Source: Bacteroidota bacterium (GTDB lineage: Bacteria; Bacteroidota; Bacteroidia; Bacteroidales; CAIXZF01). Taken from it: a stretch of DNA of 64,000 nucleotides. The DNA lies in the NCBI GenBank assembly GCA_022709385.1, contig JAKLIX010000001.1, forward strand, positions 496,001 to 560,000. The letters are read 5' to 3'. Below the pieces are notes generated by a model that was not told where the DNA came from, did not search any database, and saw only the letters and a program-made list of their open reading frames with translations. Position 1 is the first letter of the stretch. Every line of letters starts with the position of its first letter. Positions 30,843 to 58,263 of the stretch are shown in pieces. The position numbers were made by a program, and so were the translations under genes.

Positions 30843-30958
30843 TGCCGAAACGGAATGTGTTTGGAAAAATTACCTGGTTTTAAAGTGGTATAAAGGTTCA
30901 GTTTCAGGGATGGTGTCGCAGACTGGAAGGATATCTGCAGATTATACAGCAATTGGAT

Positions 30959-31597
30959 ATGAATCGCTTATTTTTGTACCGGCATAAAGATAAAAGGCAC
31001 ATGTACCCGGATGCATTGAAGGATAAAACGGTTGGAATTGCAGGTTGCGGAGGCCTGGGATCCAATTGTGCCGTCGCTTTGGCCAGGGCCGGCGTCGGCA
31101 AACTGGTCATTGCGGATTTTGATGTGGTTTGCGAGTCAAACCTGAACCGCCAATATTTTTTTATTGATCAGCTGGGTATGAAGAAAGTCATCGCGTTGCG
31201 TGATAACCTGCTCAGGATCAGGCCTGGCCTGCAGCTCGAAGTCCACGATGTGACACTTGAGCCGGAAAGCATCTTCCGGATTTTTTCCTCCTGCCAGGTG
31301 ATTGCCGAAGCTTTTGACCAGGCTGCCGCCAAGCAGATGATCATTGAAACGGTGCTCAGCCGCTTCGATGACAAATACCTGGTGTGTGGTATAGGCCTGG
31401 CGGGTTGGGGTATGAACGAATCCATTGAAACTGTGAGGGATGGACGGTTGATTATTTGCGGTGACCGGTGTAGCGAGGTATCCGATACGCTTCCTCCGCT
31501 CGCACCCAGGGTGGGAATTGTAGCCCACATGCAGGCGAATATTATTCTGGAACTGCTGCTCGGACCTTGCGGCGGGCTTCAGCCATGTGTCACATAG
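30959..31597 (+). CDS. thiF: Sulfur carrier protein ThiS adenylyltransferase
   Basis: A 212-residue E1-like enzyme. The nucleotide-binding motif GIAGCGGLGSNCAVALARAG, the adjacent IADFDVVCESNLNRQYFF with catalytic Asp, Asn and Arg, and APRVGIVAHMQANIILELLLG identify it as ThiF/MoeB family. It activates the C-terminal Gly of ThiS as the acyl-adenylate. At 212 residues it is shorter than E. coli ThiF and lacks the pair of CxxC zinc motifs, as in the short ThiF forms of anaerobes. Adjacent thiS supports the thiamine role; no other thi gene is here. Start taken as the ATG at 30959. Confidence 0.88.
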   Translation: MNRLFLYRHKDKRHMYPDALKDKTVGIAGCGGLGSNCAVALARAGVGKLVIADFDVVCESNLNRQYFFIDQLGMKKVIALRDNLLRIRPGLQLEVHDVTLEPESIFRIFSSCQVIAEAFDQAAAKQMIIETVLSRFDDKYLVCGIGLAGWGMNESIETVRDGRLIICGDRCSEVSDTLPPLAPRVGIVAHMQANIILELLLGPCGGLQPCVT

Positions 31598-31814: not shown

Positions 31815-31846
31815 AACAAAAAAGCGCCCGAAGGCGCTCTTTTGTT
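31815..31846. terminator. Bidirectional intrinsic terminator
   Basis: A perfect six-base-pair stem AGCGCC/GGCGCT with a CGAA tetraloop (31823-31838), flanked by an A-rich run on the left and a T-rich run (CTTTTGTT) on the right. It can end the plus-strand thiF-thiS transcript and the minus-strand transcript of the giant cargo genes, whose last codons begin at 31845. Confidence 0.8.
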
Positions 31847-34800
31847 AATGTTCAATGATCATCTTCCTTGCAAGTCGCGTTTCACCGTATGTTACAAAGT
31901 AATAATACATGCCGGGCGGTAAAGCGGCGGTATTCAGTTCAAAGCTGTGTTCTCCGCCATTGCTTTTCTCCCTGCGGCTGATCACACATTGCCCGAGTTG
32001 GTTGATGACTTCCAGCTGCAACTCGCCTTTGCCGGGAAGCATACAAACAATCAAGGTGGTCTGATCGGCCGGATTTGGGATATTCTGCGACAAACCAAAG
32101 GGTGACTGCCCATGTTCAAAGATATCCAGCCATTTGTTCTCCAGCCGGTTGCAAATGGTGTCGTTGATCCTGTAACCGTCGGTGGCGACATCGGTATATA
32201 CACACAGGTAATAATACCCGAAATTCGGGAAATAATACCTGGTGCTGAAGGTATACGTGGTGCTTTCACCGGTCTGAAGGGCCTGGCTTCCGTACCAGGT
32301 TTCCTGAACAACCTTAAAGGTATCCTGTACGGTATATACCAGCGGAACCTCACTTACAGGGTTCTGACCCAGGTTTTTGATCATGACTTCCACGGTGGCC
32401 GAATCTCCGTAATTGGTTTGGGAACCCGGCTGCAGCAGCGCAATCATGGTCAGGTCATAGGGAGGGGGCACTACGGTAATATACTCACAAACAGAGTCGT
32501 TGAAGAAATACGTATCGAAATTCACATCGGTATACACACAAAGGGTGTAATCCTGCAGGGGTGATGGGAGGGGATCAAATGTCACGGTGGCGGTGGCATC
32601 CGGAAGCAGTGCACCGGGATTAACTTTATATCCGACCGTGATCCCGTTGATCATGTATTTGACAGGTACATTCATTAAGGTATCCCAGCCTGTATTTTTT
32701 ATGACTGCCGACACCACGATGTCCTGTCCGTAAGTGTTTGTTCCTGTTGGTTGAAGGATCTGTACCGTGCTGGCATCGATCTGTATCCTGGGGAAGGTAA
32801 GCTCCACATTGTCGATGGCCCAGCCATTGTAAGTGGTGTTGTTAAAGGAAGCGGGACTGAAAGCAAAGCGGAACTGGGTCGGGATGGCATAATCAATAGT
32901 GATCTTAAGGTCGTAATCCGAATAAATGTAATTGGTGTCAACCATACTCCATCCGTTGGGAACATTATGCCAGTTCGTAGCATTGGGATCATTGATATAG
33001 CCCAGCTTCTTCCAGGATCCGTCGTTGGCCAGGTATTCCACACGGCCCCAGTCGTTGGAATGCGTATGAACCCAGTGGTAGAATTTAAGCGTATCCATGC
33101 CCACGATGGAGAAATCGAATTTGGGTGAATACAGGTATTGGGCGGAAGCGTGCGGATAGACACCGTTAAGCAGGGTTTTCCAGCTGTTGGGAGGGGAATA
33201 GGGTGCATTGATCACCGGAGAGGCCGGACTGCCCTTCTGCCAGAGCGATCCTGTCGTGTAAAAATAGCAGACTGCGCTGTCCATGTCGTCATAAAAGTAT
33301 GGGATCAGGATGGGGATACCGAACAGCTCAACCATAACGGTGTCGTTCATGTTATCTCCGTCGTTGGGCAGGCCGGTAAAGGCTTTCAGGGTGTATGTGC
33401 CTGCCGGGGCGGCGAACTGTGTGGTGAAAACATAATGGGTGGAATCCCCCGGGACAAGATTTCCGTTCCAGGTTTCGCTTACGATGGGGTTGTTGTTGAT
33501 CTGGTAATAGATGGGAGTGGACGTAAGGTTGTTCATCCCGTTGTTGTTCAGCCTGACATCCACAGTCAGCATCGTTCCTTCATCGTTGATACCACTGGGT
33601 GCATATACCAGATCAACGCCAGCATCATGGGGATAGGGGATGGTGATGGCAAAATTATCGATGGCAAAGCCGTATGTCTGGGAAGAAGAATTGGAAAAGA
33701 AATACAACCTGAACCGCATGGTAGGGGTGAAATTGAAGTTGGACAGCAGGTAGGTTGCTTTTATCCATCCGTTTGAAATCCCTGCCCAGGCTGCACCTAA
33801 GGTGGTGATAGTGGAATTGAACCAGTTGATTCCCAGAGGGTCGTTCACTGAACCCAGTACATTCCACGTGCTACCTCCGTCGGTGCTGTATTGCACCTGG
33901 GCTCCGTCTCCCGTGGTGGGCATGTTACAGTTATACCAGAATGATATTCTGGCATTGATGGCATTCGAGAAATCAAAGATCTGCGTGGTAAGATAACAGC
34001 TTGCATTGGCTGTATATGAATTCATGTTCAGGTTGGTGGCCCAGACATTGGGTGAGGAAACAGGGGGGTGAGGCCAGCCGGGCGCTATCGGTGAACCATG
34101 GATCCAGCTTGTTCCGCTGGTGGTGGTCGGGAAAAAATTAATGGCTCCGTCGAAATTATCGTAATAGGGCAGAGTATCCACGGGAACGCCCTGTATTGTG
34201 CGGCAGAGGGTGTCGTTGAAGGAGTTGGAGTCGCTCACCAGTGCGGTATAAGCGCAAAAACTGTGGAAGCCGGTAGGCCAGGTGATGGGGGTGAAAGTGA
34301 CGTTGGTGGTGGCATTGGTGGCAAGGTTGCCTGTCCAGATCTGAGTAACGGGAGGATTATTGTCAATAATATAACCCACGAGCACGGAGGTAATGGGATC
34401 CGTACCGAAATTCTTCATGATAACGCTGACCGGACTGCTGTATCCCTGGGGATAGGTTGTGGCCGGTGTCTGGATACTGGTGATGCCAGCATCTTTCGCC
34501 AGCTGGGGCATGATCAGGGCCGTGTAATCTTCCGTCTCACCCCAGGTGTAAGTGGTACAGGGTGCAATGGAACTCGGAGATGAGGTTTCCACTAAAACAA
34601 CCCTGAAACGGGTCGGTCCTATCGCTGCAGTTACAGGTACGGTGATGGTGCCGGCCATGAGGCCGTTGGTGGTGGTGGTGGGACCTCCCGTAAAGGCAGT
34701 TTCGGTGGCAGGATCAAACTGGCCGTCGTAGTTCCAGTCAACGAATACCTTGCAGTGGCAGGTATAAAAGCTGCCCAGGTAAATGGCTGAAACAGAAATA

Positions 34801-37397
34801 CTGTAGGTCTGTCCTTTGGTTAGCAGGATGGCAGGGGCAGTCGTGGTATAATTGTTATAGGTTTGGTTGGCGGCGGGATTGTTCAGGTATGGCAGCGGAT
34901 TCCCCCAGTTCAGGTTGCTGATGGTCACATTCCCGATATCGTCATAGCCGTTGGAAGTGGCATAGGATTCACAGTAGGTGAACATATTGTTGATCACTGT
35001 CTTGGTCACAGTGTCATTCTGGTGATTGTTGTCACCCGGGACATCCAGCCACGACTTGAACTGATAAGTGGCATAGGCACTCAGGTTTGCCGGCGTGGTA
35101 AAGGTATAGGTGATGGTATCACCCGGCTGAAGTGTGGCTGTGAAGGTTTCTGTTACTGCAGGAAGGCTGTTGATTTTGTATGACATCTGGAATCCGGTAA
35201 CAGGCTGGGTTCCGTAATTCCTGATCTTTGTTCTGACAATCATGTTGGAACCCAGGTTAAAGCCTGTATTTGGAGAAACCAGCAACAGGCTGGCTCCATC
35301 GTAAGGGGGGGGCTGGCCGACAAAAACGGTGTCGGAAGCTCTTGGTCCGATACATCCGTTGGCGCCGTTGGCCTGTGGGTAATAGATCGTGGTGGCATAC
35401 AGGATGGGTGTGGTAAAGTTGGCTCCGCTGCCGATCAGGTTGCCTCCCGTGATTGCATCGTACCAGCTGACAGGGGATGGAGATGTTGCCGTGATGGTGG
35501 TGCTTGTGCCGTATGGGATCAGCACGGAAGTAACGCCCGGAGGGGCAGGGACAGCCTTGGAAACTACCTGCCGTATCAGGGTGTCGTCACCGTGATTGGG
35601 ATCATTGGCCAGGGTAACCCATACCTTGATGTTGAAGAGAGAATCCTGCCCTGTGGCAAAAAGGTTTACGGGGGTGGTAAATGTATAGGTGAGCGTACTT
35701 CCCGGCTGTATCGTTCCGGGAACCGTTTCAGTAACCGCAGGAGCCCAGGGAGCCTTTTTGTAACTGGCAGTCAGTCCCCCGTTAATGACCGTCATTCCTT
35801 CATTGAGAATGGTGATGGTGATGGTTTCATTGCCCAGCCCGCATCCCGAATTCGGAGAACTTACCTGGGTGAGGGCAGCTTCCTGGGGAGAGGGCAGGAC
35901 GATGGAAAAGTCGTCGATGGAGAAACCACTGTAGGTTTGCGATCCGTCAGAATTGAAAATATATCTGAACCTTACCTGACCGACAGCATTGTTCAGTACG
36001 CTGAGTTTATACTTGCACTTCATCCACCCGTTGGTATTTCCCGCCCATGCAGGCTGGTTGGTAGAGTATATGTTGTTGGTGTACCAGTTTTCACCAAGCG
36101 GGTCGTTCAGGGTACCCAGGATTTGCCAGTTGGTACCGTTGGTCGTGTATTCCAGCCGGGTGCCGTCATAATTGGTTTCTGTGTCGTTGTTCCTCCAGAA
36201 GGTTAACTTGGCATTGACCGCATTGGAAAAGTCAAAAACCGGCGATGTCAGGATGCAGTATGCATTGTCGTAGTATGTAGTGGTAAGGTTCACGTCCCAG
36301 GCATTGGGCGGAGAATGCGTAGAATTGGTCGTTCCGTATGAAGGCGTGCCGAGTTGCCAGGACGTACTCTGGTTGGTCCCGCCGTAACTCGGCGTCCACA
36401 ATCCCAGGTTCACATCGAAATTGTCATAGAAAGGAAAGGTAATCCCTGCATAAGCAGTAAACTGGTTGCAGCTGCTTACCGGTTCCCTTGCCCAGTTGTG
36501 CGCCAGGCTCGCATCAAATGCTTCCACCCACCAGCAGACCTGATCTGAATCATTCACTGTGGGAATAATGCCCATCATGGTATCCAGGGGCAGATCGGTC
36601 ATCCCTGCCGTATCGTAGGGGCCGTTGTTGATGCTGTAAACAATGTAGGCGGTATCTATCCCCGACTGGTCTGAGATTTTTGCCTTAATATTGAAAGGAC
36701 CCACGCTCCAGACGATACCGGATATGACGGGCGGTACCAGGGTAATGACCGGCGGGATCAGTTCGGAGGGTGCAAGTGTCACTTTCACATTATCAAGGTA
36801 CCAGCCTGCATTGTTGACCGGACCAACCTGTCCTCCGTCTGATAACCTGAACCTGATCTTTACACTGGAATAATTGCCGACAAGCTGCGAAATATCGAAG
36901 GTTTCGGTTCTCCACCAGGTGTTCTGTGGTAAAGCCGGCGGATTGGACGGTTGCCACAACGATCCGTAAGAATTACAGGCAAACCTGTTCCCGTTGGCCC
37001 CGAACTGCCCTGTTCCAAGATACTGGGCTGCAGTAAGCTGAACCCAGCTGACGCCATTGTCGTTTGATACTTCTATACTGGCAATGTCAAGGAAATCGAT
37101 CTTGGCGATCTGTGAAAAAGTCAGTACAACATAAGTGTATCCGATGGTGCTGAAAGGAATGGAGGTCAGGTATTGCGTGGCACCGGCCTTAACCTGGCAG
37201 GAATCTGATCGGGTACTGGCTGTGGTATGATACAGCCGTGTATTGATCCCCCAGTCTTTGACAGGAGGGTTTGTCTGGGTGGAGATCAGGCTGTCGTCGA
37301 GGCTCGGCAATTCGAAGTTTTCATGAAAGCCGATAACCTGTCCATGGCTCAGACTGAGGGTGAAGATCAGGAGGGCGAAACTAAGTAACTTTTTCAT
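31845..37397 (-). CDS. Giant T9SS cargo protein A (GEVED/CARDB-like repeats)
   Basis: About 1850 residues, secreted. Order: signal peptide (MKKLLSFALLIFTLSLSHG); MAM/jellyroll-like module opening FHENFELP; an Ig-like domain (PPVISGIVWSVGPFNIKAKI); a second jellyroll (FYDNFDVNLGLW); CARDB-like segments; a GEVED domain with VFVDWNYDGQFDPATETAF and YTWGETEDYTALI; third and fourth jellyrolls (YYDNFDGAINFF, YFYDDMDSAVCYF), each followed by CARDB-like repeats; and a type A sorting domain (LSQNIPNPADQTTL ... GMYYYFVTYGETRLARKM). There is no enzyme motif; adhesion or a surface layer is an inference. It is the tandem paralogue of the next upstream gene. Start is the ATG at 37397, because a longer frame would run into gene B. 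Confidence 0.88.
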   Translation of the reverse strand: MKKLLSFALLIFTLSLSHGQVIGFHENFELPSLDDSLISTQTNPPVKDWGINTRLYHTTASTRSDSCQVKAGATQYLTSIPFSTIGYTYVVLTFSQIAKIDFLDIASIEVSNDNGVSWVQLTAAQYLGTGQFGANGNRFACNSYGSLWQPSNPPALPQNTWWRTETFDISQLVGNYSSVKIRFRLSDGGQVGPVNNAGWYLDNVKVTLAPSELIPPVITLVPPVISGIVWSVGPFNIKAKISDQSGIDTAYIVYSINNGPYDTAGMTDLPLDTMMGIIPTVNDSDQVCWWVEAFDASLAHNWAREPVSSCNQFTAYAGITFPFYDNFDVNLGLWTPSYGGTNQSTSWQLGTPSYGTTNSTHSPPNAWDVNLTTTYYDNAYCILTSPVFDFSNAVNAKLTFWRNNDTETNYDGTRLEYTTNGTNWQILGTLNDPLGENWYTNNIYSTNQPAWAGNTNGWMKCKYKLSVLNNAVGQVRFRYIFNSDGSQTYSGFSIDDFSIVLPSPQEAALTQVSSPNSGCGLGNETITITILNEGMTVINGGLTASYKKAPWAPAVTETVPGTIQPGSTLTYTFTTPVNLFATGQDSLFNIKVWVTLANDPNHGDDTLIRQVVSKAVPAPPGVTSVLIPYGTSTTITATSPSPVSWYDAITGGNLIGSGANFTTPILYATTIYYPQANGANGCIGPRASDTVFVGQPPPYDGASLLLVSPNTGFNLGSNMIVRTKIRNYGTQPVTGFQMSYKINSLPAVTETFTATLQPGDTITYTFTTPANLSAYATYQFKSWLDVPGDNNHQNDTVTKTVINNMFTYCESYATSNGYDDIGNVTISNLNWGNPLPYLNNPAANQTYNNYTTTAPAILLTKGQTYSISVSAIYLGSFYTCHCKVFVDWNYDGQFDPATETAFTGGPTTTTNGLMAGTITVPVTAAIGPTRFRVVLVETSSPSSIAPCTTYTWGETEDYTALIMPQLAKDAGITSIQTPATTYPQGYSSPVSVIMKNFGTDPITSVLVGYIIDNNPPVTQIWTGNLATNATTNVTFTPITWPTGFHSFCAYTALVSDSNSFNDTLCRTIQGVPVDTLPYYDNFDGAINFFPTTTSGTSWIHGSPIAPGWPHPPVSSPNVWATNLNMNSYTANASCYLTTQIFDFSNAINARISFWYNCNMPTTGDGAQVQYSTDGGSTWNVLGSVNDPLGINWFNSTITTLGAAWAGISNGWIKATYLLSNFNFTPTMRFRLYFFSNSSSQTYGFAIDNFAITIPYPHDAGVDLVYAPSGINDEGTMLTVDVRLNNNGMNNLTSTPIYYQINNNPIVSETWNGNLVPGDSTHYVFTTQFAAPAGTYTLKAFTGLPNDGDNMNDTVMVELFGIPILIPYFYDDMDSAVCYFYTTGSLWQKGSPASPVINAPYSPPNSWKTLLNGVYPHASAQYLYSPKFDFSIVGMDTLKFYHWVHTHSNDWGRVEYLANDGSWKKLGYINDPNATNWHNVPNGWSMVDTNYIYSDYDLKITIDYAIPTQFRFAFSPASFNNTTYNGWAIDNVELTFPRIQIDASTVQILQPTGTNTYGQDIVVSAVIKNTGWDTLMNVPVKYMINGITVGYKVNPGALLPDATATVTFDPLPSPLQDYTLCVYTDVNFDTYFFNDSVCEYITVVPPPYDLTMIALLQPGSQTNYGDSATVEVMIKNLGQNPVSEVPLVYTVQDTFKVVQETWYGSQALQTGESTTYTFSTRYYFPNFGYYYLCVYTDVATDGYRINDTICNRLENKWLDIFEHGQSPFGLSQNIPNPADQTTLIVCMLPGKGELQLEVINQLGQCVISRREKSNGGEHSFELNTAALPPGMYYYFVTYGETRLARKMIIEH

Positions 37398-37416
37398 TAT
37401 CAAAATAATATGCGAT

Positions 37417-40400
37417 CTAGTGAGAAATAACCATTTTTCGGGCAAGCCGGTTCTGGTTGAAAATAACATGATAATAGTAGATTCCGGATGGGATGTCTTC
37501 GGTTTCAATGCTTAATACCTGCATACCGTCTCCAAGTTTTTCCCTTCGCTGGTATATGGATTGTCCAACCATATTGACCAGTTCGAACTGAATCTCACCC
37601 GGTCTTGGCAGCCGGATCATGATCTGGGTTGTCCCGTCGGTCGGATTAGGGATATTTTGCGACAGGTAAAAGGCATCCGGATCATTTTCCGCAATCCAGG
37701 TGTATTTTTCCTCAAGAAGGCGGCAGTTGGTGTCATTCACCATATAACCGTCACCAAGGTATTCAGTATAGGCGCACAGGTAATACCAGCCCAGGAATTC
37801 GTAATTGTAGGGAGTATTGAAAGTATAGTCGATGGAATCACCCGGGTTCAGTGCCTGGGCAGGCTGTATGGTTTCGTGAACGGTAATGGCACCGGTGCCT
37901 ACATCATATCCCACCGGGATCTCGGTGACCGGGAATTGTCCCACATTCTTGATGTTGACGGTTACAGCGGCTGGCTCTCCATGAATGGTAAGGAATTCGG
38001 GGGCAATGATACGGCTGACCAGCAGGTCATAATCCGGAGCCTGGACGGTAATGCCGGTACAGGTGGTGTCGTTGAAATACTTATCATCGCCCGGGAGGTC
38101 TGTATAGGCACAAAGGGTATAATCCGACAGGGGCGAAGGCATGGGCGGGAAGTTGTAAACCGTGGTGGAGTCAGGCAACAGGGATCCGGTCCAGGTGCCG
38201 AAGTTGGAAGTAATACCGTTGATCTGGTATTTAACCGGAATGTCTGTCAGGGTATCCGAACCGAAGTTTTTAATCCTGACACTGACATTGAGATCTGTCC
38301 CGTAGATGGTTTGTCCGCTTGGTTGAATAATGGAAATAACGCCTGCATCCTTGGGTATTTTTGGCGAAGTGAGCTTAAAATTATCCACGGCCCATCCGTC
38401 GAAGTTGGTGTTCACATAAACTGGTTTAAAGTAAAAACGGAACTGGGTCGGGGTAGCAAAATTGGTGATGACTTTCAGGTCGTAAGCCGACTGGTGCCAT
38501 CCTGGTTGCACGCCGAATCCTGTCCACCCGTGGCTTGCGTTGGTGTACCAGTTAAGGGCGTTTGGATCGCCCAGCCAGCCAAGGGTTTGCCAGCCGTTGG
38601 TGCTGAGATACTCCAGGAAGGCGATGTCGTTTTCGTATATGTGTGACCAATGGTCGAAGATCAGGGAGTCATAGCCTGTCTGCGAAAAATCGAAAACAGG
38701 GGAGTACAGGTACTCGTCCTGGCCGGTTCTCTGGTAGATGCCGTTGAGTATGGTTTTCCAGCAAAAGGGAGGGGACTGGGGTGCGTTGATCACGCTGGAG
38801 GTGGGTGTGCCATGTTGCCATTGGGTACCGGTGGTGTACCAGTACGTCAGGGTTGAATCAAATTCATCGTGGTAGGGGATGGTAAAAGTAGGGATGCCGA
38901 AGAGTACCTTGAAGGAGGTATCATTCATATGGTCCCCGTCGCCCGCGATGTCTGCATAACAGGTCAGGGTATAATTCCCCTGCGGGGCAATGTAAGGCAG
39001 GGATAAGTTTACGATGGTGGAAGCTCCGGGTACCAGAGATCCGGTCCAGGAATGCGTAAGCAGGGGACCCTGGTTGGCGCGGTACTTGATGTCCACACCG
39101 GTAAGGTTGGTGCTGCTGTAATTGACCAGCCTTACCTGAGGATACAGCTGGGTGCCTGCCACGGCCTGACCGGTAGGTAGCAGGATGGAGTCCACACCGG
39201 CATCAATCGGGTAAGGAATGGTGATGGCGAAATTATCGATGGCAAAACCTTTTTGCTGGGTAGCAGTATTGGATAGAAATACAAAACGGAAACGCATGGT
39301 GGGAACCTGGTTAAAATTCGACAGTACATAAGTTGCTTTTTTCCAGCCGCCCGAGTTACCGGCCCAGGCAGCACCCAGGCTGGTAATGTTGCTGGGATGC
39401 CAGTTGATTCCCAGGGGGTCGTTCTGGCTGCCCAGCGGCTGCCAGGTGTTTCCGCCGTCCTGACTGTACTGTAGCTGCACGCCATCGCCCGTTGTCGGCA
39501 TTTCCGTATTATACTGGAACATAATTTTTGCGTTGATGGCATTGGTAAAGTCAAAGATCTGGGTAGTGAGTTGGCATAACGCACTGGCCGTATAACCTGT
39601 CATGTTCAGGTTGGTAGCCCATAGGTTGGGTGGAGAATAAGCAGGCGAGGGCCAGTTTGGAGCGACGGGCGCCCCGTGAATCCAACTGGTACCAGTGGTT
39701 GAGGTGGGGAAGAACCGGATCACTCCGTCGAAGTTGTCGTAATAGGCCAGGGTGTCCACCGGCACTCCCTGGATGTTCCGGCAAAGGGTATCGTTAAATG
39801 TATTCGAATCGCCATCCAGGGTGGTATAGGCACAGAAGGTGTGATAACCAAGGGGCCAGGTAATGGAAGGGAAGGTTACCTGGGTGCTGCCGTTGGGAGC
39901 AAGGTTACCGATCCAGGTCTGGGTGACCGGAGGATTGTTGTCAAGCACATAGGTAACATCTACGGAGTCTATTGCGTTGAGTCCGAAGTTTTTAATGGTC
40001 ATGGTGGGTGGATTGGTGTACCCCTGAGGGTAGGTAACAGGAGGAATGTTGATGGCCGTAACTCCGGCATCCCAATCCAACTGTGGCATCACAAGGGCAA
40101 GATAATCCTCCGTTTCGCCCCAGGTGTAGAGTCCGCAGGGATCAATATTACCCGGTGAACTTGTTTCCACTACGATTACGCGGAAACGGGTAATTCCCAG
40201 GTGGGCGTTTACAGGAACCGTAATAGTACCGGTCAGGGTAGTATTGGTTTGTGTGGTGGGCCCGGCGGTAAACGCATTTTCTATGGTCTCGTCGAAGACG
40301 CCGTCGTAATTCCAGTCGACAAATACCTTGCAACAGGTGCTGTAATGACCGCTGGCAAAGATCACACTGACAGAGATGTTATAAGTCTGTCCGCGTGTAA

Positions 40401-42978
40401 GGAAAATAGGCGGCAGGTTGGTAAAATCAGTATATAACTGTGCGGAAGTTCCGTTGTTGAATGTAGGCAATGGATTCCCGTTGTTCAGGTTGGAAATCGT
40501 GACATTGCCGATGTCTTCGTATCCGGTGGAAGTGGCCCGGGATTCACAGTAGGTAAACATCTTGTTTTCCACTGTCTTGGAGGAGGTATCGTTGATGTGG
40601 TTCTGGTCTCCGGGTACATCCACCCAGGATTTAAACTGGTACACCTGGTAAGCGCTCAGATTGGCAGGTGTAGTGAACACATAATCAATGATATCATCTA
40701 TTTCCAGGGTATCGGTTACTGTCTCCGTTACCGGGGTGCCATTATTAATGCTGTATTTGATTGGGAAATTGAAGATAGGATCTGTGCCGTAATTTCTGAT
40801 CCGTACGCTGACTGTTTCTGAGGCAGTCAGGTTAAAGCCCGTGTTTGGAGTCAGAATTGACAAGGTAGCCCCGTCGAATGGCGGAGGAGAACCCACGTAA
40901 ACGGTGTCTCTTGCCCTGACGCTCACACAGCCGTTTGAAGCGGTGGCCATGGGAAAATAGACCATGGTTCCGTAAAGGATGGGAGTAGTATAGCTGGGCC
41001 CGGTTCCGATCTGGGTTCCGCCGGTGAACTGGTCGAACCAGGTGATGCTGTGCGGTGAGGCAGCTGTAATTGTGGTAAAAGTGCCATAAGGAATGAGGAC
41101 GGAAGTGACAGCCGGGGGATTGGGAACGAATTTCGACTGAATGACTTTGGTGGCAGTGTCATCACCCAGATTGGGATCATTGATCAGGTTCACCCAGGCT
41201 TTCAGGATGAAAACGGAATCGGCGCCGATGGCCTGCAGGTTTACCGGGGTAGTGAAGGTATACAAGAGGGTATCTCCGGGTTGAATGGTATTGGGAACGG
41301 TTTCAATGACCGGTGGTGAAGTCGGACTTTTCCGGAATCCTGCCGTCAGACCACCGGTGATGGGGGTCAGTCCTGCATTGTGAATCTTGATTTTCACGGT
41401 TTCATTACCCAATCCGCAGCCGCCGCTGGTAGCGATGATTCCCTCACAGGTAGCTTCCTGGGGTGCCGGCAGGGTGATGCTGAAATCGTCGATGGAAAAA
41501 CCGTCATTGTTGCCGCTGCCGTCGGAAGTGAAAATATAGCGGAAGCGAACCTGGCCGACAACATTGTTCAGGTTGCTCAGTTTTATCTTGGCTTTTTTCC
41601 ATCCGTTCGACTGGCCGTTCCAGGCCGGCTGGTTGCTGGAATTGATGTTGCTGTTATACCAGTTGGTTGCAAGGGGACTGTTTACGGCTCCCAGCAATTG
41701 CCAGTTGGTACCATTGGTGGTATATTCAAGCCTGGTGCCGTCCCAGCCTGATTCGCAATAATAGTTTATCCAGAATGCCATCCTGGCATCCACCGCGTTT
41801 GAGAAATCGAAAACAGGTGAGGTTAGTATGCAATAAGCATTTGAGGCATAGGCGGTTGTGAGGTTCACATCCCAGGCGTTCGGATGCGAATGGGTAGAAC
41901 TGGTCACACCATAGGATGGTTGACCAAGCTGCCAGGTGGATTGCTGGTTGGTTCCTCCGTAACTGGGTGTCCATAGTCCGAGATTCACATCAAAATTGTC
42001 GAAAAAGGGAAAAGTGATCCCGGCATATGCCGTAAACTGGTTGCAGCTGGATACCGGCTCTCTTGCCCAGTTGTATGCAGGTGATGCATCATAGGCTTCC
42101 ACCCACCAGCAAACCACATCCGAATCATTGACCGTGGGAATGATTCCCATCATGGTATCCAGCGGCAGGTGCACCATGCCTACTGTATCGTAAGGGCCAT
42201 TATTCACCGAATAAATCACTTTTGCCGTATCGATGCCGCTGGCGTCGCTGATTTTGGCCTTGATCTGGAAAGGCCCCACACTCCATACAATTCCCGTGAT
42301 TACCGGAGGCACAAGGATGATGGTTGGCGGAGTAAGTTCTGAAGGAGCCATCAGAACCCGGATGTTGTCGAGATACCACCCTTTGTTGCTGTTCGGTCCG
42401 GGTTGGCCGCCGTCTGAAAGCCTGAACCTGATCCTCGCATCGGGAACATTGCCGATCAAAAGGCCGATATTGAACGACTCGCTTCGCCACCAGGTATTGG
42501 TAGGCAGGGCTACGGCATTGGACGGTTGCCATAAGTTCCCGTAGGAATTGGCGGCAAAACGGTTTCCGTTGGCGGCGTACTGTCCTGTACCCTGATACTG
42601 GGCTCCGGTTAGTTGAACCCAGCTCTGCCCGCCATTGTTCGATACTTCAATGGTGGCAATATCCAGGAAGTCGACCTTGCAGATATGGTCGAAATACAGG
42701 ATGACATTGGTGTTGCCCAAAGTGCTGAAAGGATTGGAGGTCATGTATATGGCCTGTCCTGTCTTTACCTGGCAGGAATCCGACCTGAGACTGCCGGCAC
42801 CGTAATGCAGACGGGTGTTGATGTTCCAGATGTCACCCGGAGCTGGCGAAGAAAAGTATGTTACACTGTCATCCTGGCCCGGTAATTCAAAATTCTCATG
42901 AAAGACAATGGTTGCCTGTGACCAGACTGCAGTGTAATATCCGAACACGAATAACAACAGTATGAGTAACTTTTTCAT
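37417..42978 (-). CDS. Giant T9SS cargo protein B, tandem paralogue of A
   Basis: 1853 residues, with the same domain order as protein A from signal peptide (MKKLLILLLFVFGYYTAVWS) to sorting domain (LSQNIPNPTDGTTQIMIRL ... GIYYYHVIFNQNRLARKM). Long near-identical runs occur, for example around the second jellyroll (FDVNLGLWTPSYGGTNQ in both) and the GEVED domain. Differences concentrate in the signal peptide, the fourth jellyroll and the last CARDB-like repeats. It ends 19 bases before the start of A, so B and A are probably one transcript, B first. No adhesin, protease or glycosidase motif is visible. Confidence 0.88.
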   Translation of the reverse strand: MKKLLILLLFVFGYYTAVWSQATIVFHENFELPGQDDSVTYFSSPAPGDIWNINTRLHYGAGSLRSDSCQVKTGQAIYMTSNPFSTLGNTNVILYFDHICKVDFLDIATIEVSNNGGQSWVQLTGAQYQGTGQYAANGNRFAANSYGNLWQPSNAVALPTNTWWRSESFNIGLLIGNVPDARIRFRLSDGGQPGPNSNKGWYLDNIRVLMAPSELTPPTIILVPPVITGIVWSVGPFQIKAKISDASGIDTAKVIYSVNNGPYDTVGMVHLPLDTMMGIIPTVNDSDVVCWWVEAYDASPAYNWAREPVSSCNQFTAYAGITFPFFDNFDVNLGLWTPSYGGTNQQSTWQLGQPSYGVTSSTHSHPNAWDVNLTTAYASNAYCILTSPVFDFSNAVDARMAFWINYYCESGWDGTRLEYTTNGTNWQLLGAVNSPLATNWYNSNINSSNQPAWNGQSNGWKKAKIKLSNLNNVVGQVRFRYIFTSDGSGNNDGFSIDDFSITLPAPQEATCEGIIATSGGCGLGNETVKIKIHNAGLTPITGGLTAGFRKSPTSPPVIETVPNTIQPGDTLLYTFTTPVNLQAIGADSVFILKAWVNLINDPNLGDDTATKVIQSKFVPNPPAVTSVLIPYGTFTTITAASPHSITWFDQFTGGTQIGTGPSYTTPILYGTMVYFPMATASNGCVSVRARDTVYVGSPPPFDGATLSILTPNTGFNLTASETVSVRIRNYGTDPIFNFPIKYSINNGTPVTETVTDTLEIDDIIDYVFTTPANLSAYQVYQFKSWVDVPGDQNHINDTSSKTVENKMFTYCESRATSTGYEDIGNVTISNLNNGNPLPTFNNGTSAQLYTDFTNLPPIFLTRGQTYNISVSVIFASGHYSTCCKVFVDWNYDGVFDETIENAFTAGPTTQTNTTLTGTITVPVNAHLGITRFRVIVVETSSPGNIDPCGLYTWGETEDYLALVMPQLDWDAGVTAINIPPVTYPQGYTNPPTMTIKNFGLNAIDSVDVTYVLDNNPPVTQTWIGNLAPNGSTQVTFPSITWPLGYHTFCAYTTLDGDSNTFNDTLCRNIQGVPVDTLAYYDNFDGVIRFFPTSTTGTSWIHGAPVAPNWPSPAYSPPNLWATNLNMTGYTASALCQLTTQIFDFTNAINAKIMFQYNTEMPTTGDGVQLQYSQDGGNTWQPLGSQNDPLGINWHPSNITSLGAAWAGNSGGWKKATYVLSNFNQVPTMRFRFVFLSNTATQQKGFAIDNFAITIPYPIDAGVDSILLPTGQAVAGTQLYPQVRLVNYSSTNLTGVDIKYRANQGPLLTHSWTGSLVPGASTIVNLSLPYIAPQGNYTLTCYADIAGDGDHMNDTSFKVLFGIPTFTIPYHDEFDSTLTYWYTTGTQWQHGTPTSSVINAPQSPPFCWKTILNGIYQRTGQDEYLYSPVFDFSQTGYDSLIFDHWSHIYENDIAFLEYLSTNGWQTLGWLGDPNALNWYTNASHGWTGFGVQPGWHQSAYDLKVITNFATPTQFRFYFKPVYVNTNFDGWAVDNFKLTSPKIPKDAGVISIIQPSGQTIYGTDLNVSVRIKNFGSDTLTDIPVKYQINGITSNFGTWTGSLLPDSTTVYNFPPMPSPLSDYTLCAYTDLPGDDKYFNDTTCTGITVQAPDYDLLVSRIIAPEFLTIHGEPAAVTVNIKNVGQFPVTEIPVGYDVGTGAITVHETIQPAQALNPGDSIDYTFNTPYNYEFLGWYYLCAYTEYLGDGYMVNDTNCRLLEEKYTWIAENDPDAFYLSQNIPNPTDGTTQIMIRLPRPGEIQFELVNMVGQSIYQRREKLGDGMQVLSIETEDIPSGIYYYHVIFNQNRLARKMVISH

Positions 42979-43134: not shown

Positions 43135-44424
43135 TCATACCACTTCGGCTACCACAAAAGAGCTGCCGCCGATAAAGATCAGATCTTCTGCCGATGCGGC
43201 GGAAAGGGCTGCACGATATGCTTCCCCTACTCCCTTATAAGGGATTCCCTTCAGTCCGGCGGCCTTAGCAGTCCGGTAGAGTGCTTCGACCGGCAATCCC
43301 CTGGGTACGTCGGGCCGGCAAAAATAATAGTCCGCTCCTGAAGGTAAGAGCTTTAAAATAGATGATACGTCCTTGTCGCCTGCCAACCCGAATACTATAT
43401 GAAGGCGTTTGCATGAAATCTCACCGAGTTGTTTCACCACTTCACTGATCCCGCTTTCATTGTGGGCCGTATCACAGATGGTGAGCGGTTTCCTTTTTAA
43501 AACCTGCCATCTGCCCCGTAATCCCGAGTTTTGAACAACGCGGCCGATTCCCCTGAGGATGGCAGTGTCCGGGATACTTCGAAACATTCCGGAAAGCTGA
43601 TGACATGCCTCCAACACGCTAAGCAGGTTCTTTTGCTGGTAATGTCCGCCTAATGGACAATACAGGTTCTCAAGAAATGGCTCACCCCTTTTATAAATAG
43701 CGGTGCGGAACCCTTCCTTCAGCTGCCTTATGGAATGAAGGCCGAAACCCCGGTCAGCATATGAGATTGGTGCCTGCATGCCATGCGCCCTGTCTTCGAA
43801 GATATGCCGTATGGCCTCCTGGCTCTCTCCAATAATAACGGGAACTCCGGGTTTGATAATGCCGGCCTTCTCTGAAGCAATGGCTTCGGGATTGTCCCCG
43901 AGGAATTGCATGTGGTCCATGCCGATATTGGTGATGATACTGAGCAACGGACGGATGACATTGGTGGAATCAAGCCGGCCGCCCATCCCTGTTTCAATGA
44001 CGGCAATTTCCGCCTGCGCTTCGGCAAACCAGGCCGCAGCCATTGCAAAAGTCATTTCAAAAAATGAGGGCTTCAGGTTCCGGAATACCTCCTGATGCCT
44101 GTTTACAAATGAGACGACGAAGGATTTGGGGATCATGCGTCCGTTTACCCTGATCCTTTCACGGTAATCTTTCAGATGGGGCGAAGTGAACAGGGCTGTC
44201 CGCAAACCTGATTCCATCAAAACCGAGGCCAGCATGGATGATACCGACCCTTTGCCGTTGGTACCGGCGATATGGACAGACGGGAAGTGTGTGTGTGGAT
44301 TGCCGGCACTAAGGCAAAGAGAAAGCGTGGTGTCAAGTCCCGGCTTATAGGCCGGAGGTCCTGTCCTGTGGTACATCGGCAGTTGTGAGTACAGGTATTC
44401 CAGGACTTGCGGATAGGTTTTCAA
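43135..44424 (-). CDS. folC: Bifunctional folylpolyglutamate/dihydrofolate synthase
   Basis: Adds glutamates to folates and makes dihydrofolate from dihydropteroate. The 429-residue Mur-like ligase shows GTNGKGSVSSMLASVL (P-loop), LFTSPHLKDYRERI, AVIETGMGGRLDSTNVI and ITNIGMDHMQFLGD. The start is a TTG at 44424, overlapping the tonB stop as TTGA; a later ATG at 44376 would cut off YLYSQLPMY, which is conserved in the family. Fourth gene of exbB-exbD-tonB-folC. Confidence 0.93.
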   Translation of the reverse strand: MKTYPQVLEYLYSQLPMYHRTGPPAYKPGLDTTLSLCLSAGNPHTHFPSVHIAGTNGKGSVSSMLASVLMESGLRTALFTSPHLKDYRERIRVNGRMIPKSFVVSFVNRHQEVFRNLKPSFFEMTFAMAAAWFAEAQAEIAVIETGMGGRLDSTNVIRPLLSIITNIGMDHMQFLGDNPEAIASEKAGIIKPGVPVIIGESQEAIRHIFEDRAHGMQAPISYADRGFGLHSIRQLKEGFRTAIYKRGEPFLENLYCPLGGHYQQKNLLSVLEACHQLSGMFRSIPDTAILRGIGRVVQNSGLRGRWQVLKRKPLTICDTAHNESGISEVVKQLGEISCKRLHIVFGLAGDKDVSSILKLLPSGADYYFCRPDVPRGLPVEALYRTAKAAGLKGIPYKGVGEAYRAALSAASAEDLIFIGGSSFVVAEVV

Positions 44425-45266
44425 TTCTGCAGGACAAAATGATAGGTGATGCTGCCTTTTTGTTCTTCCGGGGCATTGGGGTTGGGACTGAAACGGGCCT
44501 GCAAGGCAGCCTGCCTGGCAAGCCGTTGCAGCACGGCACTGGAAGTGGTGGTCCCCCTGGCGCCGGATTCTGCACGAGTAACCGCTCCCTGTTTATTCAC
44601 CCAGATCCTGACCACTACCGTTCCTGTTTCATAGGCCCCGTATTCCGGCTTTGGTAAAAACTTGGCGCTGCGCCCGCTCAGGTCAAAGGACGGTCCGATC
44701 CCGTCTCCCTTGCCGGTTCCGACGCCGTAACCCGCTCCCGTCCCGGCACCCGACCCCGGTTCCCCGTCGTAGTTCTTACTGTATAAGGAACCACCCGGAT
44801 GACCCTGGTCGCCGGCCTGCCCCGTAATGCCTTCGCTTCCTCCCTGCTTCTTTGGTTTACCGGTATACAAAGCCTTCGGATTTACGACAGGGTCATTGAT
44901 TTTAATGACCTCCGCCGGCTTGGTGGCTTCATTGTTGCGCGATGTCTGTATGGCCGGAGCTTCCTCAATGTCCTGTGTCAGGTAGTTATCGTCAGTTCCG
45001 TCTTTTCCCTTCTGAACGGTGATCTCTGAAGGAGCCTCGCCCAGATCCCTGGTGTTCACTGCAAGGTATTCCTCGTACTGAACATCGCCCATGCCCTGGT
45101 CAGAAGTGCCGAAATTCACCTCAAGCCCCGATCCTCCCCCAACCATGGGATATGGAGGTATCGGCGTGTGCATGACAATCAGGAATAAAACCCCGAGAAT
45201 GATGCCATGAAAAACCAGGGAGAGTATCCAGGCTAAGGGCCGGTTGGTGTTTTCTGCATCCTGCAT
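44421..45266 (-). CDS. TonB-like energy transducer
   Basis: About 281 residues. One N-terminal membrane helix (LAWILSLVFHGIILGVLFLI), a long Gly/Pro/Ser-rich periplasmic spacer with GAGTGAGYGVGTGKGDG, and a C-terminal domain with TGTVVVRIWVNKQGAVTRA and a final SITYHFVLQN, as in the TonB C-terminal fold. It couples the proton motive force from ExbB-ExbD to outer-membrane transporters. Start taken as the ATG at 45266, which lies one base from the exbD stop. TolA-like function is the alternative. Confidence 0.85.
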   Translation of the reverse strand: MQDAENTNRPLAWILSLVFHGIILGVLFLIVMHTPIPPYPMVGGGSGLEVNFGTSDQGMGDVQYEEYLAVNTRDLGEAPSEITVQKGKDGTDDNYLTQDIEEAPAIQTSRNNEATKPAEVIKINDPVVNPKALYTGKPKKQGGSEGITGQAGDQGHPGGSLYSKNYDGEPGSGAGTGAGYGVGTGKGDGIGPSFDLSGRSAKFLPKPEYGAYETGTVVVRIWVNKQGAVTRAESGARGTTTSSAVLQRLARQAALQARFSPNPNAPEEQKGSITYHFVLQN

Positions 45267-45267
45267 G

Positions 45268-45669
45268 TCAGCGCTGCATTGATTTTGTGGCCAGTACCAT
45301 CTTGATGCTGACCTTATTGCCGATCTGAAGCACATCTACCAGATCCTGAACACTCAGGGCATTGTCGAAACGCAATACCACGGTAGGTTCGGTCACGGTA
45401 CTCGTAATCCGCTGAAGTTCAGATTCAAGCATGTCGAATCCGATTTCCTGGTTGTTCACAAAATACCGTTTGTCGGCCGTAACCGAAAGAGAGATCTGTT
45501 GTTTGCTGATGGCCTGGGAAGTAGTTGCCTTTGGCAGCATCAGCTTGATTACCGAAGGATTGACCAGGGTCGAAATGATCAGAAAGAACAACAACAGAAA
45601 AAACATGATGTCGTTCAATGATCCGGTATATACTTCCGCATGAAAAGCGGACCGCTTCCTCAGGTTCAT
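45268..45669 (-). CDS. exbD: ExbD/TolR biopolymer transport protein
   Basis: About 133 residues with a single membrane helix near the N-terminus (NDIMFFLLLFFLIISTLV), whose Asp is the proton-motive residue in this family, and a periplasmic domain ending VDVLQIGNKVSIKMVLATK. Start chosen at the ATG at 45669 (MNLRKRSAFHAEVYTGSL), overlapping the exbB stop; a longer frame from 45696 is less likely. Confidence 0.9.
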   Translation of the reverse strand: MNLRKRSAFHAEVYTGSLNDIMFFLLLFFLIISTLVNPSVIKLMLPKATTSQAISKQQISLSVTADKRYFVNNQEIGFDMLESELQRITSTVTEPTVVLRFDNALSVQDLVDVLQIGNKVSIKMVLATKSMQR

Positions 45670-45670
45670 C

Positions 45671-46399
45671 TCATGCCTCCTTCTGCAATAGATCAAGAAA
45701 TTCCCTGGAACTGTCCTCCAGCTGGAAAACCACTTTATCCAGCAGGATGTTCAGGTAATGATAACCGGTGTAGGCCAGAACCCCGATGATCAGGCCGGTT
45801 GCACTGGTGATCATCTTTTCATACAGGCCTCCTGCAATGATCCCGATGCTGATGTTGTCGGCAAGGGAAATATTGTAAAAGATCTTGATGACCCCCATGA
45901 TGGTACCGATGAAGCCAAGCATCGGCGCAATGCCTGCCACGATCCCCAGAATCTTCAGGTTCTTTTCCAGCTTGGTGATCTCGTACCGCCCTACACTTTC
46001 CAGCGATCGTTCAATCTCATCTATGGGTTTCCCAACGCGTCCAAGCCCCTTTTCCACCATCCTTGAGATGGGGGAATTAACTGACTTGCAAAGGGCTTTG
46101 GCTGCATCCAGCTTATAATCGAAAATGAAATCCCGGATGTTGTGCATGAAGTTATGGTTGATCCTGCCTGCTTTCCTGATGGCGATCAGCCTTTCGAAAA
46201 AGAAGTATACTGCCAGCAGGGACAAAATAAAAAGGGGTATCATGACAATCCCGCCTTTCATGACCAGTTCAATCAGTGTGAGCGACTCAACCGTGGACAC
46301 CGGCTGCGGAGGGGACTGTATCTGGGTGACTGCCTGTTGTATGGTGTCGCCTATGCTTTGCCCTGCGGTGCTGATCTGTAATAGCATGCCTGAAATCAT
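45671..46399 (-). CDS. exbB: MotA/TolQ/ExbB proton channel family protein
   Basis: 242 residues with three membrane helices: about 33-58 (GGIVMIPLFILSLLAVYFFF), about 150-172 (GIVAGIAPMLGFIGTIMGVI) and about 192-212 (SATGLIIGVLAYTGYHYL). Cytoplasmic loop between helices one and two is typical of ExbB/TolQ. With ExbD it forms the proton channel that powers TonB. First gene of the four-gene minus-strand unit, divergent from the sigma factor gene across a 306-base gap. Confidence 0.92.
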   Translation of the reverse strand: MISGMLLQISTAGQSIGDTIQQAVTQIQSPPQPVSTVESLTLIELVMKGGIVMIPLFILSLLAVYFFFERLIAIRKAGRINHNFMHNIRDFIFDYKLDAAKALCKSVNSPISRMVEKGLGRVGKPIDEIERSLESVGRYEITKLEKNLKILGIVAGIAPMLGFIGTIMGVIKIFYNISLADNISIGIIAGGLYEKMITSATGLIIGVLAYTGYHYLNILLDKVVFQLEDSSREFLDLLQKEA

Positions 46400-51395: not shown

Positions 51396-52871
51396 TTAAT
51401 AAGCGCCGGGGATGGGACTGCCAACCCTGGTCATGGCACAACGAAAGCCGATATTGTCGGTCGACTGGTATTCATCCAGGAAACGGCGTGTACCCGGACT
51501 GAGCCAGTAGGCACGGTCTTTCCATGAACCACCTTTGTAAACACGGGCCTGATCATTGATCATGGAAGTCATGCTGTAATCATACATCAGGTTGGAAGTA
51601 TTGCCTTCCGGAGCTTCAAGCCATTCTTTCGACAAGGTGGAAGCGTAATCACCGTCGAGGTAATTGATATTGTCGGATTTCCTGTAATTTCTCCTGTTCA
51701 TGCTTTCTTCCGTGGTCACCTCTCTCCAGATAACCCTCCCGAGGCTGTCTTTCTCGGCGATAAAACCTTCCTGGTCCCTGGTCTGGGTTTTAAAGACATT
51801 CCCCCTGTAAGAGCGGAAATCATCCATGTCTTCATAGGTGAGGGGCCTGTAAACATCCATTACCCACTCGGAAACATTGCCGGCCATATTGTAAACACCA
51901 TAATCGTTCGGCCAGTATGAATATACCGGGGCAGGTATGTCGGCACCGTCGTTCAGGTTCCCTGCCACGCCCATATAATCACCCCTGCCTCTCATGAAAT
52001 TGGCGACAAAGCTGCCGTAGAATTTATCATCGGTGGTACGTGTGAAGTTTCCGTTCCAGGGATAGTTCCTTCTTTCAATAATACGTTCAAACTGGGTGTT
52101 TCCCACGAGGCCGAGCGATGCGTATTCCCATTCGGCTTCGGTGGGCAGGCGGTAACGCGGGAGCAGGATGCCGTCTTCCATCCTGACCTTCCTTTCACCG
52201 GAACCGGAAGGATTCAGGTCTTCCAGCGGGCTGCGGACCAGTCCTTCATATTGCCCTACAAGATAAGCGTCGGTATTGAAGTTGTTCTCATTCAACTGAT
52301 CGGGATCCCAGTCGAGGATGCCCTGTTCCACCAGGATCATTTCATTTACCCTGTCGGTTCTCCATGCACAGTAATTACTGGCCTGGTGCCAGTTGACACC
52401 CACAACGGGATAGTTACGGTATGCGGGATGCCTCAGGTAAAGTTCCACCAGGGGCTCATTGTAAGCAAGACGCTCTCTCCATACCAGGGTGTCGGGCAGT
52501 GCTTTTTTGAATACTTCCGGATAGTCCATGCTGAACACACGTTGTAACCAGTAAAGGTATTCCAGGTAATCCAGGTTGCGAACCTCGGTTTCATCAAGAT
52601 AGAAGGAGGATACGGTCACCCTTCTCGGGATGTTGTTCCAGTTGAACTGGACATTGTCCTGGGTTGTTCCCATGACGAAAGTACCTCCTTCGATCAGGAT
52701 CAGTCCGGGACCCGTTGCCTGTTCAACGAAATCAACCACCTCAAAACCACCGTTCTCGGGGTTGTTGTATTCCCACCCGGTGGTGCTTGAATACTCTTTC
52801 TTGCAGGATGCCAGGGTAAGGATCAGCAACCCCAGCGATACTGCCTGTGTGATTTTTATTAGCCGCTTCAT
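51396..52871 (-). CDS. gldJ: T9SS/gliding lipoprotein GldJ
   Basis: About 491 residues, a lipoprotein with lipobox LASC after a short signal peptide. The rest is a formylglycine-generating-enzyme (SUMF) fold: LILIEGGTFVMGTTQDN, VSSFYLDETEVRNLDYLEYL, YPVVGVNWHQASNYCAWR, YRLPTEAEWEYASLG, YNMAGNVSEWVMDVY and a C-terminal NIGFRCAM. The DETEV and DYLEYL wording matches GldJ rather than GldK/PorK. GldJ has no known enzymatic role; it stabilises other gliding/T9SS proteins. Start is the ATG at 52871; an ATG seven codons upstream is possible. Confidence 0.88.
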   Translation of the reverse strand: MKRLIKITQAVSLGLLILTLASCKKEYSSTTGWEYNNPENGGFEVVDFVEQATGPGLILIEGGTFVMGTTQDNVQFNWNNIPRRVTVSSFYLDETEVRNLDYLEYLYWLQRVFSMDYPEVFKKALPDTLVWRERLAYNEPLVELYLRHPAYRNYPVVGVNWHQASNYCAWRTDRVNEMILVEQGILDWDPDQLNENNFNTDAYLVGQYEGLVRSPLEDLNPSGSGERKVRMEDGILLPRYRLPTEAEWEYASLGLVGNTQFERIIERRNYPWNGNFTRTTDDKFYGSFVANFMRGRGDYMGVAGNLNDGADIPAPVYSYWPNDYGVYNMAGNVSEWVMDVYRPLTYEDMDDFRSYRGNVFKTQTRDQEGFIAEKDSLGRVIWREVTTEESMNRRNYRKSDNINYLDGDYASTLSKEWLEAPEGNTSNLMYDYSMTSMINDQARVYKGGSWKDRAYWLSPGTRRFLDEYQSTDNIGFRCAMTRVGSPIPGAY

Positions 52872-52915
52872 GGAATGATATCTGAAAATCATTGATACAG
52901 TTCGGTTTACATTAA

Positions 52916-53914
52916 CTAAAAGGACGGGCAGTTTATTGTTCTTATCTTTTTCTTTTTCACAGGACAGGGGAACAGCCAGCTGAATGACACCTCGTGGGCG
53001 CCACCCGTGATGTTGGTCAGCCTGGATACGGTAAGGTCGTAACTGTAACCCAGTTTAAAACTGGATTGTTCAAAACCTGCCAGCATAATGAAAGCATCTG
53101 CATTGTTGAAATTCTGCCTGAACCACAATCCTCCCACAAAAGGTGATCTGTTGAAATACAAACCGTAGTTGATCTGCTGGAAATGCTGCTGCATTTGGTA
53201 GAGAATGTTGGGAGAAATGGTGGGATCTTCCGGGTTGCGGTTGGAGCCGCTCTTGCGCTTCAGGTCAATAATGCCTCCCGCATGAACGGTGAGCTTCATG
53301 TTGAGCTTGCTGCTGATGTCGCTGTAAAACCCTTCATTGGGCTGAGTCAGGTGATGAACCGCGACTCCGGCGAAAAAACTCTCTCCAAGATTCAGTAAAG
53401 TACCCGTGGAAAAATCCGCAAACCCGATGCTTAGCTTGGGTGGGGGCTTTTCCTGGGTCTGGTTCACAAACCCGAAACGCGGGTCGATCATGTCGGGAAA
53501 AGTCAGCTTATCCCAGTCGATCCTCCGCTGGTAATAAGTGGCCTGAAAACCGGCATGCAGAAACGACCTGCGGTTGAGTGTCAACCGGTAAGAATAAATT
53601 CCGCTGAAAGTAGTGGTAGTTAGTGCCCCTTCCCCGGCCTGGTCGTTCATGGCCAGAAATCCGACACCTCCCGAAATCCTGTCCCAGTATTGGTCGAAAG
53701 CGGCGCTGTACGTAACATAAGTCCCTGCAATAGCCGGCCATTGATTGCGGTAATTGAAGGTAAGCCTCGGACATACCGCTGATCCTGCTAATGCGGGATT
53801 CAGGTAAAGCGGATTGGCGTAAAACTGTGAGAAGATGGGGTCCTGCGCTACTGCCACCCGGCCTGTTATAACCAGGATTATCAGCATTACCAGGTAACTT
53901 AGCTTCTTGACCAT
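52916..53914 (-). CDS. PorP/SprF family T9SS membrane protein
   Basis: 332 residues, signal peptide (LVMLIILVITGRVAVAQ) followed by the family start DPIFSQFYANPLYLNPALAG and a beta-barrel pattern of alternating strands, as in PorP/SprF proteins of the outer membrane. Some members work with specific cargo adhesins (SprF with SprB), others with the core T9SS (PorP). It precedes gldJ by 44 bases on the same strand, which hints at the core role. Confidence 0.88.
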   Translation of the reverse strand: MVKKLSYLVMLIILVITGRVAVAQDPIFSQFYANPLYLNPALAGSAVCPRLTFNYRNQWPAIAGTYVTYSAAFDQYWDRISGGVGFLAMNDQAGEGALTTTTFSGIYSYRLTLNRRSFLHAGFQATYYQRRIDWDKLTFPDMIDPRFGFVNQTQEKPPPKLSIGFADFSTGTLLNLGESFFAGVAVHHLTQPNEGFYSDISSKLNMKLTVHAGGIIDLKRKSGSNRNPEDPTISPNILYQMQQHFQQINYGLYFNRSPFVGGLWFRQNFNNADAFIMLAGFEQSSFKLGYSYDLTVSRLTNITGGAHEVSFSWLFPCPVKKKKIRTINCPSF

Positions 53915-54323
53915 AAGTGTTAGTAGGATGTTGATAAATTTTTGGGATTACAATATTACAATATTTTTTTCACATACCAGCTTTTCAAAAAATTATTGTG
54001 ATCCCGCAGCCAATTCCATTAAATCTTTTATACTGCTTATGACACTGAAAGTTTCATAAGGTTTCCCGCTCAGGCAACAATCTTAATCCAAATCTGTCAT
54101 ATACCTGAAAAAGAATGGATTCCAAAAACAAACCAGCCGCTTGAATGACTTTTTTGGAAAAATGGTGGCAGGCGGCATACTTTTTTACCAGCTTTGTTGT
54201 TTAATTTATCCCCATGGTCAACATAACAGTTGTGATCAGATTGGATGGAAACCCAAGTGATTCAATACGATACCTTATGTACCCCCAATCCGGATACCGG
54301 TGGTAATATTCAAACCCTGATTT
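53915..54323. other. 409-base divergent intergenic region between porP and porU
   Basis: AT-rich region between the minus-strand porP and the plus-strand porU. It must hold two promoters, but I found no exact TAnnTTTG in either direction; the nearest plus-strand match is CAGCTTTG at 54189-54196. No gene or RNA supported. Confidence 0.3.
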
Positions 54324-58178: not shown

Positions 58179-58221
58179 CATTGAATTGAAGGATAATACA
58201 ATATGATATTTGAATTATCGT

Positions 58222-58229
58222 TACCTTTG
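58222..58229 (+). promoter_or_regulatory. Possible internal promoter box of porV
   Basis: TACCTTTG lies between the porU stop and the porV ATG at 58264, in the 85-base gap. The -33 position has no good match, so this is a candidate only; it would allow porV to be made without porU. Confidence 0.35.
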
Positions 58230-58263
58230 CACCACTTTTTTAAAATCTAGCACCCAAAATTTT

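Follow-up and report, generated by a model that had tools for sequence, protein, structure and literature searches.

Two giant genes that lie side by side on the same strand and encode proteins of one design raise the question of how such a pair arose and whether its members have exchanged sequence since. Our best answer for the pair found in the window (i.e. the whole 64 000-nt stretch of DNA analysed here), to which we give a probability of about 0.6, is that the genes, called A and B below, are old tandem duplicates of about the age of a genus split, that their N-terminal two thirds were converted afterwards, and that they encode exported adhesive arms.

Gene pair and module architecture

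The pair and its immediate surroundings comprise the following features:

30953–31597, plus strand: thiF-family gene, downstream neighbour, convergent, 65% identical to that of the relative described below and conserved there
31823–31838, no strand assigned: G+C-rich hairpin just 3′ of A, with a T-rich minus-strand tract after it (GAGCGCCTTCGGGCGCTTTTTT; sequence and scan)
31845–37397, minus strand: gene A, 1850 aa, with the architecture of B and 61% identical to it (refined start, alignment, domain profiles)
37398–37416, minus strand: 19-nt intergenic gap from the stop of B to the start of A (sequence and terminator scan)
37417–42978, minus strand: gene B, 1853 aa, with a signal-peptide-like N-terminus, an N-terminal module, an Ig-like module, three MAM, six CARDB-like, Ig_7, GEVED and a type A T9SS sorting domain (ORF, Pfam/NCBIfam, module self-comparison)
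43135–44424, minus strand: folC-like gene, upstream neighbour, 52% identical to that of the relative and conserved there

An earlier sequence-only reading had reported two same-strand open reading frames of about 1850 residues, 19 bases apart, and both the arrangement and the giant size were borne out. The gap follows from the start of A, which lies at 37397 (MKKLLSFALL), the mechanical TTG call at 37508 being an upstream extension. No terminator-like site was found in the 19-nt gap by the terminator scan, a scan in which the overall number of sites was no higher than in shuffled sequences; together with the hairpin after A, the terminator-free gap suggests that A and B may share one transcript. 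Upstream of folC, positions 44421–46399 encode a TonB-C-terminal-like protein (below cut-off) and an ExbB/MotA channel protein.

The order of modules is identical in A and B according to Pfam and NCBIfam (InhA-like MAM, Ig_7, GEVED, reelin-type/MAM, CARDB and type A sorting domain), in agreement with the common domain order, including CARDB, one GEVED and a sorting domain, proposed earlier. The InhA-like MAM (PF20773) scored 59.2 and 63.4 bits in the two proteins against a cut-off of 26.9. Self-comparison divided the chain into 14 segments, among them three mutually homologous MAM modules (B residues 321–505, 1071–1256 and 1358–1541), six CARDB-like modules, one GEVED, one Ig_7, an Ig-like module with a low-significance match to the Ig domain of a peptidylarginine deiminase, and the N-terminal module. 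Four MAM modules had been proposed; three stand, while the N-terminal one (B residues 22–214) has neither a Pfam match nor a BLAST match to the other three. The fourth CARDB module of B (residues 1257–1357; 38908–39210) is 42% identical to CARDB5 of B, 44% to CARDB4 of A and 33% to CARDB4 of the relative, and intragenic replacement is a possible origin of this module, judging from these identities.

Export and cargo load of the genome

Sorting domains and secretion genes were located as follows:

31848–32096, minus strand: type A T9SS sorting domain of A, residues about 1768–1850 (TIGR04183, 33.0 bits against a cut-off of 23)
37420–37698, minus strand: type A T9SS sorting domain of B, residues about 1761–1853 (TIGR04183, 31.9 bits against 23)
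51396–52892: GldJ, barely above cut-off
52916–53914: PorP/SprF
54324–58178, plus strand: PorU, the T9SS sortase (NF033707, 1363.7 bits)
58210–59499, plus strand: PorV, the shuttle for type A CTD cargo (NF033710, 513.9 bits)

Both proteins carry a type A CTD above the curated cut-offs of two profiles, PF18962 scoring 31.3 bits in A and 28.1 bits in B (cut-off 27). Inspected by eye, the N-termini of A, B and the homologue in the relative consist of MKK, a hydrophobic stretch and a small residue before Q. The genome encodes a T9SS with both PorU and PorV; these lie with GldJ and PorP/SprF in a T9SS/gliding cluster at 51396–59499 of the window, 8–17 kb from the start of B, and SprA is encoded elsewhere in the genome. 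Cargo of this system is taken across the inner membrane by Sec; PorV then conveys it and PorU processes it, after which it is released or attached to the surface (PMC10202324). On this scheme, A and B would be exported by Sec, recognized through their type A CTD and handed on by PorV, and PorU would trim them and fix them to the surface.

The 4.08-Mb genome contains at least 150 type A CTD sites above cut-off (a lower bound, 150 of 318 candidates having been scored), 22 type B sorting domains above cut-off and 18 GEVED sites, and for such a genome A and B are otherwise ordinary. Together with open frames of up to 8081 aa, the sorting-domain counts indicate a very large T9SS cargo load (C2:50720, C23:276222, C29:64906, C4:62185 and other loci). 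A further type A CTD cargo, with FG-GAP repeats and a PKD-like domain, is encoded at 1129–3327 of the window.

Two paralogues of the pair were found in the same genome (G000), namely C3 (G000:C3:113334–117410, a 2237-aa frame) and C7 (G000:C7:54025–57225, a 1951-aa frame), homologous at 43–49% over the first 1360 or so residues in C3 and the first 1070 or so in C7. Where A and B have MAM4-CARDB5-6, these paralogues end, by eye, in PKD- and proprotein-convertase P-type-like modules, and the C-terminal part seems to be the exchangeable one in them.

A single copy at the same site in a relative

The one genome of the same family that we compared, the uncultured Bacteroidales MAG Ja_bin-4767 (G001, CAIXZF010000099.1), served as outgroup G. 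Its homologue is a single gene of 1855 aa with the same modules, 53% identical to A and to B. It lies in the order folC – cargo – thiF – polIII delta′ that is also found in the window, with neighbour identities of 52% for folC, 65% for the convergent thiF and 57% for DNA polymerase III delta′. Apart from this homologue, no full-length match in one piece was found among 393 sampled genomes of the order; the other genomes encode proteins of greater or smaller length in which these modules occur in different arrangements.

Adjacent homologues facing an outgroup with a single copy at that very site make this a true tandem duplication; either the locus went from one copy to two here, or one of two was lost in G001. 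The proposal of duplicated T9SS cargo is thus supported by single-copy synteny in the relative, by the type A CTD and by the T9SS genes nearby.

Divergence between A and B

The long, nearly identical stretches reported by the sequence-only reading were absent. Over 1846 aligned residues (11 gapped columns) A and B share 61.4% of amino acids and 62.5% of nucleotides, identical runs of DNA reach 18 nt at most, and the best 60-residue block reaches 87% at the amino acid and 76% at the nucleotide level. Four-fold sites differ in 350 of 556 cases (63%), the expectation for random codons of equal composition being 67%, and are hence near saturation. The duplication and any exchange must therefore be old, and a trace of conversion would be invisible in the DNA itself. 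At a DNA identity of 62.5%, faulty assembly can also be ruled out as the origin of the two copies; an additional, near-identical copy collapsed in the assembly is possible.

A change in relatedness along the gene

Two parts of the gene differ in how A and B are related (identities, trees and change point):

39211–42978, minus strand: B residues 1–1256, where A and B are sisters (67.7% aa identity, 55% to the relative)
37417–39210, minus strand: B residues 1257–1853, where A, B and the single-copy relative are equidistant

Both A and B show the 55% identity to G over residues 1–1256; over residues 1358–1853 the three values are nearly equal (A–B 49%, A–G 49%, B–G 51%). MaxChi placed a change point at B residue 1287 (permutation P = 0.0002), which persisted at the same significance once CARDB4 was removed, and the share of informative sites at which A equals B fell from 55% before the change point to 31% after it (a star). 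The shift in relationship lies at about residues 1257–1290. The block structure suspected earlier is therefore present, being readable only with an outgroup.

Trees with outgroups united A and B for residues 1–320, 321–680 and 1072–1256, with the rival groupings rejected, and were less clear for 681–1072; for residues 1–1072 combined, the AU test rejected both A+G (P = 0.001) and B+G (P = 0.0004). The best tree for residues 1257–1853 was A+G (UFBoot 82, rising to 95 for 1542–1853) and A+B was not favoured, with AU values for A+B in the C-terminal third of 0.05–0.4, i.e. no formal rejection. As to whether the N-terminal part stems from exchange with the paralogues C3 and C7, a clade of A, B and G and a clade of A, B, C7 and C3 were about equal (AU P = 0.54 versus 0.46).

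The shift recurs within single module types. Informative sites shared by A and B dropped from 61/120 to 16/71 in CARDB and from 85/135 to 22/65 in MAM modules (P about 1e-4 each), so that modules of one type in the two gene parts stand at a similar distance from G001 but differ sharply in A–B sharing. When we simulated a faster C-terminal third on an unchanged tree, using a proportional-branch model, none of 500 simulations at each of six rates came as low as the observed value. Within that model, the simulation and the same-type comparison exclude differences in constraint as the sole cause.

Origin of the pair

One part of the pair is more alike between the paralogues than the outgroup and the rest of the gene predict, a pattern that gene conversion leaves and that parallel acceleration elsewhere in the gene could still produce. 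Because A and B have a later common ancestor for residues 1–1256 and are equidistant from the outgroup beyond, ancient, partial conversion is the best explanation. An ancestral giant T9SS cargo gene, which the related genus still has singly between folC and thiF, would have been duplicated at about the time of the split from that genus; the N-terminal two thirds would have been homogenized later and the C-terminal third would retain the older divergence. Of the earlier suggestion of duplication followed by gene conversion or selection on parts, conversion in this ancient and partial form best accounts for the outgroup shift, and a recent form is refuted by the synonymous sites.

The main rival is parallel acceleration of both C-terminal parts, in which the gene was simply duplicated once the genera had split, conversion played no part, and both C-terminal thirds then evolved about twice as fast under relaxed or positive selection. 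We consider this distinctly less probable, though a serious contender: the A+B topology survives the 5% level in the C-terminal third, and this third is also the less similar part in comparisons with more distant relatives (about 41% versus about 50%). However, A and B drop from 68% to 49% identity to each other along the gene while their identity to the relative decreases only slightly, the branches leading to A and B roughly double in length in the C-terminal third without any lengthening of the G branch, and both the rate-only simulations and the unequal sharing among modules of the same fold speak against it.

It is rather unlikely that recombination with some other modular cargo gene overwrote part of one copy (e.g. 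CARDB4 or the C-terminal third of B). Related giants such as C3 and C7 could act as donors, and the identities of the CARDB4 module of B given above fit such an event, but A, B and G form one clade against other cargo in the C-terminal third with 99% support, which leaves a distant donor of this third unsupported, and the change point does not depend on CARDB4. A recent conversion or duplication with near-identical stretches, which blocks of 84–87% amino acid identity might suggest, can be dismissed given the near-saturated four-fold sites and the absence of any DNA run above 18 nt.

As a more tentative extension of partial conversion, exchange bounded by domains might keep the N-terminal two thirds alike (N-terminal module, MAM2-3, GEVED and CARDB1-3) and leave the C-terminal thirds free to diverge, giving tandem arms with a shared front, different stalk or anchor ends and divided labour.

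Structure and possible function

In the AlphaFold model covering the last 782 residues of B (mean pLDDT 82), the chain forms a row of beta beads; the N-terminal part was modelled less well (pLDDT 72). The first MAM of the C-terminal model is structurally similar to meprin alpha, reelin, receptor tyrosine phosphatase mu and immune inhibitor A (Z 11.6–14.6), the fit of B residues 1076–1255 to the MAM domain of meprin alpha being the closest (Z 14.6, 2.4 Å over 147 residues), and the MAM jellyroll is thus recognized both by PF20773 and by structure. Whole-chain fold matches (complement, transglutaminase, S-layer) are generic bead strings of no diagnostic value, those to transglutaminase/protein 4.2 resting on the Ig-like beads.

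A combination of MAM, CARDB and Ig beads with no recognized catalytic domain suggests a long, multivalent binding arm, in which the MAM-like jellyrolls and CARDB/Ig-like beads could bind glycans, cells or particles. From these domain types alone it is plausible that A and B are multivalent surface adhesins. That they instead belong to a scaffold, S-layer or sheath, or accompany an enzyme complex as a secreted accessory, is a somewhat less favoured but substantial alternative; Foldseek matches of the bead-like Ig/jellyroll strings include S-layer proteins, and a protease (Immune inhibitor A) is among the proteins of solved structure that come closest to MAM2 in sequence, but the whole-chain matches, mostly generic, do not discriminate.

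Comparison with known systems

The G001 orthologue is the nearest comparison, with the same length, modules and neighbours but one copy there and two here. Among distant proteins, the Aureispira grappling hook protein GhpA (PDB 9flx, 9fls) is likewise a giant surface string of Ig-like beads (Z 9.6–9.7 over 241 residues), but with an rmsd of 8–29 Å over several domains the likeness extends to the bead-string arrangement only and indicates no membership. A literature search for GEVED together with type IX secretion returned nothing.

The adhesin regions of Porphyromonas gingivalis HagA, RgpA and Kgp are T9SS cargo whose repeated jellyroll modules have been rearranged between strains and genes (PMC5266723). 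Like A and B, they are Bacteroidales proteins that combine a T9SS type A CTD with jellyroll adhesin modules in repeats; in both cases a genome has several paralogues, and modules are rearranged and recombined (PMC5266723; PMC11500903). In contrast, the modules of A and B are InhA/reelin-type MAM, CARDB, GEVED and Ig_7, neither protein has a protease domain, and while the P. gingivalis repeats are identical in places at the DNA level, A and B share 62%. The Cleaved Adhesin Domain (PF07675) had no match in A or B in the Pfam scan at E 0.01, which places both outside the cleaved-adhesin family. By analogy, A and B may nevertheless work like the HagA, RgpA and Kgp adhesins. They are modular T9SS type A cargo, an already known sort of surface protein comparable to HagA, and the pair, with its clear synteny, illustrates how giant surface proteins of the T9SS are multiplied and shuffled in uncultured members of the Bacteroidales; its change point will lend itself to testing as genomes of this family accumulate.
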